From contig CAMBSD010000008.1 in NCBI GenBank assembly GCA_945870425.1, positions 62,001 to 126,000 on the forward strand: 64,000 bases of DNA. Direction: 5' to 3'. The stretch's first letter is position 1, and each line of letters opens with the position of its first letter. This stretch comes from Chitinophaga pinensis (GTDB lineage: Bacteria > Bacteroidota > Bacteroidia > UKL13-3). A program made the translations under genes and the position numbers. Positions 59,286 through 64,000 of this stretch are shown piece after piece. The notes under the pieces were generated by a model. The model was not told the DNA's origin, made no database searches, and saw nothing but the letters and a program-made list of their open reading frames with translations.

Positions 59286-60009
59286 TGATTTTCAAAATTT
59301 TATTAAGTCCGAATAGTAATAAATTGGGCTCTGCAAATACGTTATTTTTTAAGTGTTTAACTAATTTAGGCGCATCACCGCCTGTAATTATCACTTTCAA
59401 ATCGCCAAAAGCCTCATCATAACGAGCAATAAATCCATTTATTTCATTCACCATGCCCCATATTACACCCGTTAACATGGATGTTTGTGTGTCTTTACCA
59501 ATCCAATCCTCGATTTCTTGGTAGGTTAAAAGTGGTAATTTTCCGGTAAATTCATGCATGGCCTTTAGCCTCATGTGTAGGCCTGGACTGATGCTACCTC
59601 CTTGGTAAATACCTTCTTTTGATACAAAATCATAGGTGATACAAGTACCTGCATCTATCACTAAACAATGGGTGTTTGAAAAAAAATGCAAAGCTCCTGC
59701 TATGCCCGCCACTCGGTCCATGCCTAGCGTTTGCGGGGTTTTGTATGTATTAGTAAAAGGTAATTTACTTTGATGGTTTATTAAAAAAGTTTTCGCATAT
59801 AATTTAAACATCTCCATTCGGTTGGTATTGGTTTCTAATACGCTACATACCACTATTTTATTTATTTGAGATTTTGTTAAATACTCATTTAAACCATTTG
59901 GAGCAGCATCGCTTGACCTTAAAAACTGAGATGTTTCTTGCAAAATATCATCATCAAACAAACCTGTCTTAACTAGTGTGTTACCAATATCTACAGCTAA
60001 AACTTTCAT
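59278..60009 (-). CDS. coaX: Type III pantothenate kinase
   Basis: CoaX phosphorylates pantothenate in the first step of CoA synthesis. Motifs of the ASKHA fold: VLAVDIGNTLVKTGLFDDDI (phosphate 1), TLGMDRVAGIAGALHFF, CLVIDAGTCITYDFVSKEGI (catalytic Asp), and YQGGSISPGLHMRLKAMHEF. Length 243 residues, normal. It overlaps birA by four bases, a common pairing in Bacteroidota. Confidence 0.94.
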   Translation of the reverse strand: MKVLAVDIGNTLVKTGLFDDDILQETSQFLRSSDAAPNGLNEYLTKSQINKIVVCSVLETNTNRMEMFKLYAKTFLINHQSKLPFTNTYKTPQTLGMDRVAGIAGALHFFSNTHCLVIDAGTCITYDFVSKEGIYQGGSISPGLHMRLKAMHEFTGKLPLLTYQEIEDWIGKDTQTSMLTGVIWGMVNEINGFIARYDEAFGDLKVIITGGDAPKLVKHLKNNVFAEPNLLLFGLNKILKINV

Positions 60010-60752
60010 GTATTCTCATTTATTAATTGTACTTCTTTGTTCGAAAAGGTTTTTGTTTCACCACCATCAAAGATAATAAGCAATTGGCCAACTTTATTTA
60101 CTCCTGTTATTTTTCCGTGTGCTAATTGATTGTCATAACTAAATTTAGCACGCACATTTTTTAAATATAAAGCTTCATGGTAGTCCTGAAAGATCGCTTG
60201 TTTTTGTGTTTTCAGTTGTTTGTATCGCTTTGAGAAACATTTTTCAAATAGCTTTAATTCTTCAAACAAGTCATAGCTTTTGTCCGTTATCAAAGCCAAT
60301 GAATTGGCTTGTGTCGTATAAAAGTCAGTTTGGTTGATGTTGATACCAATGCCAATAAAAGCCACTTTTATTTGGTTCTGCGAAATGCTATTTTCTATTA
60401 AAATGCCTGATACTTTTTTATGATTCACCATGATGTCGTTGGGCCACTTAATAAAGCACTCGCTGATGTTTTTATTTGTGAAATAATCATACACAGCAAG
60501 GCTTACAGCCATATTCAGAAACACCTGTTCTTCAATTTTTAAAAAATCAGGGGATACCACGATGGTAAACAATAGGTTCTTGTCAGCCTCACTTTCCCAT
60601 ACATTGTTTTGCTGCCCTTTTCCTTGGTTTTGGTAGGATGCAGACACAAGGGTATGGGCCTTTATTTTAGCATCTGACCATAGCTTTTTAGCTAAGTCGT
60701 TGCTAGAACTGATCTCGTTAAAATGCAGATGAAAAAAATGATTATCAGACAA
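60006..60752 (-). CDS. birA: Biotin--[acetyl-CoA-carboxylase] ligase
   Basis: Monofunctional BirA without the N-terminal DNA-binding domain. Motifs: ISSSNDLAKKLW, SYQNQGKGQQNNVWESEADK, NLLFTIVVSPDF, CFIKWPNDIMVNHKKVSGIL and FIGIGININQTDF; it activates biotin as biotinyl-AMP and attaches it to carboxylases. There is no ATG near the front, so the start is TTG at 60752 (SDNHFFHLHFNE). A TATATTTG on the minus strand at 60789-60796, with TTTG 16 bases farther, may be its promoter; it lies in the region just before rsfS. Confidence 0.93.
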   Translation of the reverse strand: MSDNHFFHLHFNEISSSNDLAKKLWSDAKIKAHTLVSASYQNQGKGQQNNVWESEADKNLLFTIVVSPDFLKIEEQVFLNMAVSLAVYDYFTNKNISECFIKWPNDIMVNHKKVSGILIENSISQNQIKVAFIGIGININQTDFYTTQANSLALITDKSYDLFEELKLFEKCFSKRYKQLKTQKQAIFQDYHEALYLKNVRAKFSYDNQLAHGKITGVNKVGQLLIIFDGGETKTFSNKEVQLINENT

Positions 60753-60808
60753 AATAAGGGATTAAGACTTTTATAGTTTATTTTGCGCCAAATATATTAA
60801 ACAAAAGC

Positions 60809-61405
60809 ATGGCAAAAACACCAGCTAAAAAAACAGCAGTAAAAAAAGTAGCTGCTAAGAAAGCAATTACAGCGGCAAAGAAGACAGCTACAAAAACAGC
60901 CGCACCAAAAAAGGTGGCTGTAAAGAAAACAGCCGCTAAGAAAACGGCCGTTAAAAAAACCGCAGCTAAAAAAGTAAGCATTCCAAAAGATATAGACGAA
61001 GTAGTAAAACCTGCAGCTAAAAAACGCCCAGCCAAGCGAATTTCGGTGATGGAGGATGGCATGGCTTTAGCGCTATTGGTAGCACAAGGTATGTACGAAA
61101 AGAAGGCAGAAAATATTAAAATTTTGGACATGCGTGCCATTCCTACTGCATCGGCTGATTATTTTGTAATAAGCCATGCAGCTAGCGATAAGCAAGTAGA
61201 AGCCATTGCAGATTCAGCAGAAGACTTTGTGCAAAAAAGCATTAACGAGTGGCCTTGGCATACTGAAGGTTACGAGAATTGCGAATGGATACTGTTAGAT
61301 TATATTGATGTGGTAGCCCATGTTTTTAAAGAAGACCTGCGCGAATTCTATGGTTTAGAAGAACTATGGGGCGATGCTGTGGATGTGTCTTTTAAAGGGA
61401 AATAG
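60809..61405 (+). CDS. rsfS: Ribosomal silencing factor RsfS with histone-H1-like N-terminal extension
   Basis: The C-terminal part (about residues 82-195) is RsfS, which binds ribosomal protein uL14 and blocks subunit joining in starvation: ALALLVAQGMYEKKAENIKI, IPTASADYFVISHAASDKQV, WPWHTEGYENCEWILLDYID and VVAHVFKEDLREFYGLEELW. The first 80 residues are almost only Lys, Ala, Thr, Val and Pro (KTPAKKTAVKKVAAKKAITA and more), the composition of histone H1-like and Hc1-like proteins. Usual RsfS proteins are about 105-125 residues, so the extension is a clear addition in the same frame. The basic tail might hold rRNA or DNA. Confidence 0.92.
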   Translation: MAKTPAKKTAVKKVAAKKAITAAKKTATKTAAPKKVAVKKTAAKKTAVKKTAAKKVSIPKDIDEVVKPAAKKRPAKRISVMEDGMALALLVAQGMYEKKAENIKILDMRAIPTASADYFVISHAASDKQVEAIADSAEDFVQKSINEWPWHTEGYENCEWILLDYIDVVAHVFKEDLREFYGLEELWGDAVDVSFKGK

Positions 61406-61417
61406 AAAAAAAATTAT

Positions 61418-61447
61418 TGGCCGGTTACGATACCGGCCATTTTTTTG
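61418..61447 (+). terminator. Rho-independent terminator after rsfS
   Basis: An 8-bp stem (TGGCCGGT with ACCGGCCA) with a 6-base loop is followed by TTTTTTT. Confidence 0.88.
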
Positions 61448-61860
61448 TTACGTCAGGTGTTTTGCGATGTCAGGTATTTCCACCTTTGTTTTTTGATGTC
61501 AGGTGTTTCTACCTGACATTTGTTTTATGAAGTGATTCTAAATAGCACGATACTATGCTTGGTGACGCATCCTTAAACAACAAGCATAGGCAAATCATGC
61601 TGTTGGTCGGGAGACACAACAACGGTCCGCTGCTTCGGATTTGCAATCCGAAGTAATTACTACAAGGATTTGTAATCCGGTACTTATATCATTGATGAGG
61701 CCTTGCTAGAACACCAAGCATAGGTTGATTTTTATATATTTGGATTGCAAATCCAAAGCTAAAAGTTCGGGGATTGCAAATCCCGAACGGCAGATGGTTG
61801 CAAATCCGAATTAGCGGAAAATCTGAACCAACGGTACGAGCGGACGCTCGCACCAGCATG
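61448..61860. repeat. Repeat-rich non-coding stretch
   Basis: No convincing gene is visible. The stretch holds three copies of GTCAGGT, the last with its inverse ACCTGACA (61449-61525); the 12-bp inverted pair CTATGCTTGGTG (61553-61564) and CACCAAGCATAG (61712-61723); at least four palindromes with the core GGATT-TGCA-AATCC (about 61636-61655, 61664-61678, 61740-61760 and 61768-61791), related to those at 18188-18233; a GGGAGACACAACAACGG word shared in part with 40685-40700; and GAGCGGACGCTC (about 61839-61850). The mixture suggests a sink for short mobile repeats. Confidence 0.65.
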
Positions 61861-61990
61861 GGTTTTTTGAAACTAAACTTAGTTTCTTTTGACTGTATAA
61901 AAATAAATGAATTAAGTAATAGATAAGATAAAACAGTCCAGAAATTATAAGAAATTGTCTTATCAAGAAAAAATATGGTACCAATTTTAT

Positions 61991-63652: not shown

Positions 63653-64000
63653 ATGGCAATAACTTACAAACTTGAACTGAATAGCAAACCAAAAGATGAT
63701 AATACTTGTGGCATCTTATTAAGGATAACTGAAAACAGAAAACACAAAAGAATTTCAACTGGTGTATTTGTTCCAGCAAAAGACTTCAACAAAAAGGCTG
63801 AAGTAGACAAATGGATAAGAAGAAGCAACCCTGAACATGCAAGCCTTAATGAAACCTTATCAAATAAGATAAAGGAAGCTAAGGAAGCAGCAAGCAAACT
63901 TTCAAATAATAATCAAGTTTCAAACCCAAAAAATATAATTTATGAAGTAAAGAATCAAAATACTGGAAGCTACATTAAATTCTATGAAGAAAAGCTGGAA
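63653..64000 (+). CDS. Tyrosine recombinase/integrase, N-terminal part (runs off window)
   Basis: The first 116 codons of a plus-strand gene cut by the right edge. The translation MAITYKLELNSKPKDDNTCG, ILLRITENRKHKRISTGVFV and PAKDFNKKAEVDKWIRR matches the arm-DNA-binding N-terminal domain of Bacteroidota phage/conjugative-element integrases, followed by helices (LNETLSNKIKEAKEAASKL) that lead to the SAM-like core-binding domain. The catalytic domain is outside the window. The gene marks the left part of an integrative element that lies mostly beyond 64000. Confidence 0.85.
   Translation, partial: MAITYKLELNSKPKDDNTCGILLRITENRKHKRISTGVFVPAKDFNKKAEVDKWIRRSNPEHASLNETLSNKIKEAKEAASKLSNNNQVSNPKNIIYEVKNQNTGSYIKFYEEKLE

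Follow-up and report, generated by a model that had tools for sequence, protein, structure and literature searches.

A histone H1-like basic tail on the ribosomal silencing factor RsfS recurs in Bacteroidota

Results

A tailed rsfS gene and its surroundings

Near the end of the window, by which we mean the whole 64,000-nucleotide stretch of DNA that was analyzed, lies an rsfS gene for a tailed ribosome silencing factor (positions 60809 to 61405, plus strand) that runs from ATG to stop and encodes 198 amino acids. Codons 1 to 80 (60809 to 61048, plus strand) form a histone H1-like tail of lysine, alanine, threonine and valine, delimited by composition, dN/dS, predicted disorder and the HC2 profile, and codons 81 to 198 (61049 to 61402, plus strand) form the end of a linker and the folded RsfS domain, as judged by pLDDT, Foldseek and residue mapping. 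The RsfS profile PF02410 matches residues 91 to 187 (E-value 3.5e-29; 101.3 bits against a cut-off of 21.6) over profile positions 3 to 98 of 98, and TIGR00090 also matches (1.1e-27; 96.1 bits against 56.9). The preliminary description of this DNA, in which about 80 residues of KKTA/KKVA-type sequence and a normal RsfS domain share one open frame, is thereby confirmed, and a profile search found this gene to be the sole RsfS match of the genome.

A promoter-like box, TATTTTG (60779 to 60785, plus strand), lies 30 nt 5′ of the rsfS ATG, and a terminator-like hairpin of undefined strand, flanked on both sides by a T-run, lies directly 3′ of the gene (61418 to 61439). Upstream is a divergent birA-like gene for a biotin--protein ligase (60006 to 60752, minus strand; TTG start as listed; TIGR00121, 4e-38), beyond which lies a gene for type III pantothenate kinase. 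Beyond the hairpin we observed two copies of a 29-bp tandem repeat (61458 to 61514) and, at 61838 to 61861, the element GAGCGGACGCTCGCACCAGCATGG, which has four genome places when up to two mismatches are allowed and a near copy of which also lies 3′ of rsfS in a congener (locus L034, at about 1969). An integrase-like open reading frame begins at 63653 and is cut by the window end at 64000 (Arm-DNA-bind_5, 3.4e-11).

Residues 1 to 80 of the protein include 25 lysines, 20 alanines, nine threonines and nine valines, and the tail carries a net charge of +22 across 86 residues. The HC2 profile (PF07382) matches residues 3 to 85 (8.9e-9) with 36.2 bits, which is below its curated cut-off of 40; the tail is H1-like by composition and is no called HC2 member. 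An H1-like tail is a descriptive kind that has no model; of its features, repeats rich in K and in A or P, predicted disorder and strong basicity are present here. Tandem 15-bp repeats occur within the tail DNA. Only two HC2-like places were found at E-values up to 1 in the 2.96-Mb genome, the RsfS tail being the stronger.

Evidence that the tail is translated

Judged by its pattern of sequence change, the tail is translated. In a congener whose genome is 70% complete (L034), the same rsfS gene is present without indels, and codons 1 to 85 differ from those of the window at 26 codons, 22 of them synonymously (dN/dS 0.039), while the remainder of the gene has a dN/dS of 0.010. Eleven further close pairs gave tail values from 0.011 to 0.62 (computable in ten). 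Across all 12 close pairs, tail dN/dS exceeded domain dN/dS in nine of the ten for which both are defined, and low tail values accompanied by many synonymous changes were found in three (0.039, 0.036 and 0.011). An antisense open reading frame at 60778 to 61140 was set aside as shadowing the tail because dN/dS is 0.108 in that frame, compared with 0.039 in the sense frame.

Upstream sequences point the same way. Of 44 tailed genes, 31 have the box TA-N1-3-TTTG within 60 nt 5′ of the tail ATG, whereas shuffled sequences gave a mean of 4.8, a contrast inflated by our having defined the box after viewing the upstream sequences; within the tail-coding stretches of the same 44 genes the box is never found. 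In the window's family, 22 of 24 tailed members carry it, at -26 to -45. Spacing follows the strict form TAnnTTTG in 22 of the 31 boxed genes and is shorter in nine, the window included, whose TATTTTG is one base short of the Bacteroidetes -7 box, TAnnTTTG. A scan for sigma-70 promoters returned two against 1.8 expected, no excess over chance.

The preliminary description had also noted that the tail would go untranslated if transcription or translation began just ahead of the RsfS domain, for instance at codon 81, the Met of ISVMEDGMA. The window does have ATG at codons 81 and 85, so that translation from either, or a transcription start within the tail, might mean that the tail is never made. 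However, 30 of the 44 tailed genes lack any ATG from codon 6 up to the domain, and seven lack ATG, GTG and TTG altogether in the tail. Together with the tail dN/dS of 0.039 between window and congener and the confinement of the box to upstream sequence, these counts leave the codon-81 start unsupported and make an unmade tail very improbable, although rare internal starts may occur in tailed genes other than those seven.

An ordinary RsfS domain behind a tail predicted to be disordered

The AlphaFold model has pLDDT below 50 at residues 1 to 3 and 14 to 79, which predicts a disordered tail, and block means of 75 to 97 from residue 81 onward. Its folded part is that of RsfS, matching 4wcw, 2o5a and 6sj6 with TM-scores by target of 0.86 to 0.89; the best Foldseek matches are RsfS of M. 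tuberculosis, B. halodurans and S. aureus, followed by MALSU1 (for example, 4wcw_C at an E-value of 4e-11, and 6sj6_9 at a TM-score by target of 0.88). No DNA-binding domain was found in the tailed RsfS by Pfam and TIGR profile searches.

The account of S. aureus RsfS in PMC9503621 gives E70, W77, D81 and Y98 as residues of the interface with uL14, of which only E70A and Y98A were testable as mutants, the other two being insoluble. All four are present in the window protein, as E153, W160, D164 and Y181, and their equivalents occur in 43, 44, 44 and 44 of the 44 tailed domains, respectively. The S. aureus domain also adjoins H95, and Q49, R53 and K56 may touch 23S rRNA (as described in PMC7125091). 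At these three places the window protein has E, D and E. All 44 tailed domains and 61 of 75 untailed ones have a negative summed charge there (means -1.91 and -1.17), which is suggestive of a tail that might compensate for lost rRNA-contacting residues, but acidic residues at these places are common in untailed proteins too, and the three independent pairs on supported branches are too few to link them to the tail. In a paired test, overall domain charge does not follow the tail.

Distribution and history of tailed RsfS

We read 120 loci of the class and counted as a tail at least 35 residues with at least 18% lysine; 44 loci pass, a proportion that is no rate because 18 loci outside the window's family were picked for their long open frames. 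A search for N-terminal basic extensions on RsfS, as the preliminary description had proposed, and their mapping show that they are recurrent in Bacteroidota. In the window's family (35 genomes, one without an RsfS match), 24 of 34 RsfS genes carry a tail, as do eight of 71 class-wide family representatives, and in two more families a tailed member stands beside an untailed representative. The tails of all 44 genes read range from 39 to 191 amino acids and are variable in sequence, yet in every one of them the open frame and a positive charge are preserved (+11 to +54 overall; +11 to +29 in the 24 of the window's family). One tailed member (G022) sits in a complete chromosome, and hence the tail is not an artifact of fragmented assembly.

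A tree of RsfS domains (119 rows, 113 columns) unites the family's 24 tailed genes in a single clade (support 99/99) within which no tail has been lost. With so few columns, and with the family's untailed members scattered over three positions, the tree is weak in its deep forks. Nine changes of the tail label are required on the best tree, of which supported branches force only three. An AU test disfavors a single clade of all tails (p = 0.023). A single early gain of the tail with later losses may nevertheless have occurred.

Beyond the class, we surveyed 148 genomes of the phylum and fetched 20 loci of other classes, again picked for long frames. Four of these (L201, L203, L205 and L207) have lysine-rich N-terminal RsfS segments, although two of the four have no in-frame ATG before the domain, which makes their starts unsure. 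In two genomes of one other-class family the basic tail is C-terminal (L208, 926 to 1450, minus strand, and L209), being K/A-rich in L208. Most of the remaining other-class loci among the 20 have no such tail.

We also considered whether tail gain is linked to exit from an ftsH operon. An FtsH-type Walker motif downstream of rsfS is absent in the window and in all 24 tailed members of its family, and is present in four of the eight untailed rsfS of that family with enough DNA (six of the 120 rows were dropped from these counts because their downstream DNA was too short). However, among tailed genes from outside this family 19 of 20 keep the motif, as do 50 of 70 untailed genes, and the link was rejected.

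Similar tails elsewhere in the genome

A DNA pattern for three KK pairs at five-residue spacing occurs 15 times, in five places of the genome, against three occurrences of the reversed control pattern. Two of these five K/A-repeat places are C-terminal, on TopA and on a DUF5606 protein, and two others are the RsfS tail and the N-terminal tail of a DksA-like protein. The fifth is a stand-alone open reading frame of 63 amino acids (contig C19, L115, 1403 to 1594, minus strand), which is nearly all K, A, P and T and has no Pfam match. Given also its recurrence in Bacteroidota, this kind of tail is neither unique nor confined to RsfS.

TopA (contig C18, L073, 34 to 1632, plus strand) has a KKTA-type C-terminal tail with a close likeness to that of RsfS. 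A search of 21 family genomes, one without a match and two not fetched, left 18 TopA ends to read, and all 18 bear a lysine-rich C-tail (13 of these genomes have a tailed RsfS and five an untailed one); the RsfS-tailed genomes G044 and G046 have only short TopA ends. Because the TopA tail is kept with and without an RsfS tail, genome-wide lysine drift was rejected as the source of the latter, and the two tails are not locked together. The DksA/TraR-like zinc-finger protein (contig C2, L102, 1198 to 2322, plus strand; PF01258, 6.7e-07) bears a K/A-rich N-terminal tail of about 246 amino acids. Of 15 family genomes with tailed RsfS, 14 have this tail and the fifteenth (G020) is truncated where its contig stops; of six with untailed RsfS, three have it. 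RsfS and DksA-like tails co-occur only loosely.

Discussion

The RsfS family and H1-like appendages are both known, and as far as our searches reach, the repeated presence of such an appendage on RsfS is apparently undescribed: a full-text literature search, with subscription papers and preprints outside its scope, showed no description of RsfS tails among the papers it listed. What is directly supported is that the tail is translated, conserved in the genus, retained across the clade and disordered by prediction, and that the RsfS domain is intact. The preliminary description is thus upheld in part: its H1-like tail in frame with RsfS is confirmed, whereas the roles it suggested, tethering to rRNA or to the nucleoid or an aid to hibernation, are conjectural.

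The tail probably improves the grip of RsfS on nucleic acid. We tentatively favor, at a little short of an even chance, a uL14-binding silencer whose flexible polycationic arm strengthens its hold on large-subunit rRNA. A normal RsfS would thus bear a long, flexible and strongly basic N-terminal arm. To go by its conserved interface residues, the folded domain would bind the free 50S subunit at uL14 and keep the 30S subunit from joining, as it does in other bacteria, and the arm would add electrostatic contacts that are not sequence-specific, most likely with 23S rRNA near the uL14/bL19/H95 site. RsfS with its arm might bind more tightly, stay longer or bind immature or damaged 50S subunits, and selection would favor the charge and flexibility of the tail over its exact sequence. 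The low tail dN/dS of the genus pair (0.039), a sign of purifying selection, is consistent with this role. Moreover, given E, D and E at the places of Q49, R53 and K56, a basic arm could replace that rRNA contact, and the C-terminal tails in two other-class genomes would be expected if the essential feature is a tethered polycation. On the other side, tail dN/dS reaches 0.62 in some pairs, and this type of tail is known for DNA binding and is borne also by TopA of this genome. Charge-changing substitutions are fewer than expected in tails (79 of 242, with 108.6 expected; some pairs share a sequence), but because domains show a matching excess of charge-keeping changes (34 of 136 changing charge, with 51.6 expected), this excess is not peculiar to tails.

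The main rival to an rRNA-binding arm, rather unlikely in our estimation, is that the tail tethers RsfS to the nucleoid, binding DNA as the tails of HupB and TopA do and holding RsfS there, perhaps together with the 50S subunit, or storing it until starvation. The C-terminal PAKK/KAAK tail of HupB is required for its DNA binding, as reported in PMC5676037, and in the present genome TopA has the same type of K/A repeat and the DksA-like protein a tail of similar kind. However, the intact uL14-facing residues point the domain to the ribosome, the profile searches gave no DNA-binding domain, and RNA binding is also reported for lysine-rich disordered segments (PMC6821194). Next comes a weakly constrained low-complexity expansion, likewise unlikely and a shade more so, in which repeat slippage would lengthen a short basic N-terminus to a tail that is tolerated and has little function. 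Many relatives begin MAKKKK, and the 15-bp repeats, the wide range of tail lengths, the ten of 34 family members without a tail and the nine of ten pairs with a higher dN/dS in the tail than in the domain would all fit such slippage. Hard to reconcile with it are the low dN/dS of the three pairs rich in synonymous changes, the retention of the tail in 24 of 24 members of the clade, and the intact frame and persistently positive charge of every tailed gene among the 44 read.

Two further proposals are more remote. RsfS may repeatedly have been made a two-ended linker in Bacteroidota, with its domain on idle 50S subunits via uL14 and its arm on DNA, which would couple stored ribosomes to a compacting nucleoid in starvation and would place RsfS, with the tailed TopA and DksA-like proteins, in a regulon-like set of H1-tailed shut-down factors; we consider this distinctly improbable. 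Less probable still, the tail may bind polyphosphate or drive RNA condensates in starvation, so gathering or sequestering RsfS. The predicted disorder of the tail would suit this role, and the general chemistry of lysine-rich disordered arms is compatible with polyphosphate binding or RNA condensates.

The anti-association factor RsfS is close to universal, and the question of how firmly the 50S subunit holds or releases it is still open; in S. aureus, the mechanism of RsfS dissociation is called elusive by the study in PMC7125091. A lineage that has added and varied a polycationic arm, with sister genera that lack it, offers a natural comparison of full-length with tail-less RsfS in one and the same background. 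In addition, H1-like tails, familiar mainly from DNA-binding proteins of bacteria, are here seen on a ribosome factor, and if the arm does bind DNA, ribosome silencing would be linked to the nucleoid.

Among known systems, the window protein shares with the RsfS/YbeB/Iojap family the complete domain, the fold and the residues of the S. aureus uL14 interface. The bacterial RsfS chains in the PDB that match by sequence are 105 to 152 amino acids long and have no such arm in the matched part, whereas the window protein has an H1-like arm of 80 residues. MALSU1, the human mitochondrial RsfS, also has a long N-terminal region, its domain matching at 118 to 194 of a 234-residue chain. A mitochondrial targeting signal forms part of this region of MALSU1, and the resemblance to the window tail drawn here is one of length. 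As described in PMC8316566, MALSU1 binds L0R8F8 and mt-ACP as a module, in which it differs from the window RsfS. HC2/Hc1-type histone H1-like proteins resemble the tail in composition, but the window tail scores below the HC2 cut-off and is fused to an RsfS domain. HupB of mycobacteria, with its H1-like PAKK/KAAK tail (PMC5676037), and the lysine-repeat TopA of actinobacteria (PMC7398561) are each, like the window RsfS, a conserved bacterial protein with a basic tail. However, HupB and TopA are DNA-binding proteins with C-terminal tails, whereas the window RsfS is a ribosome factor with its tail at the N-terminus.
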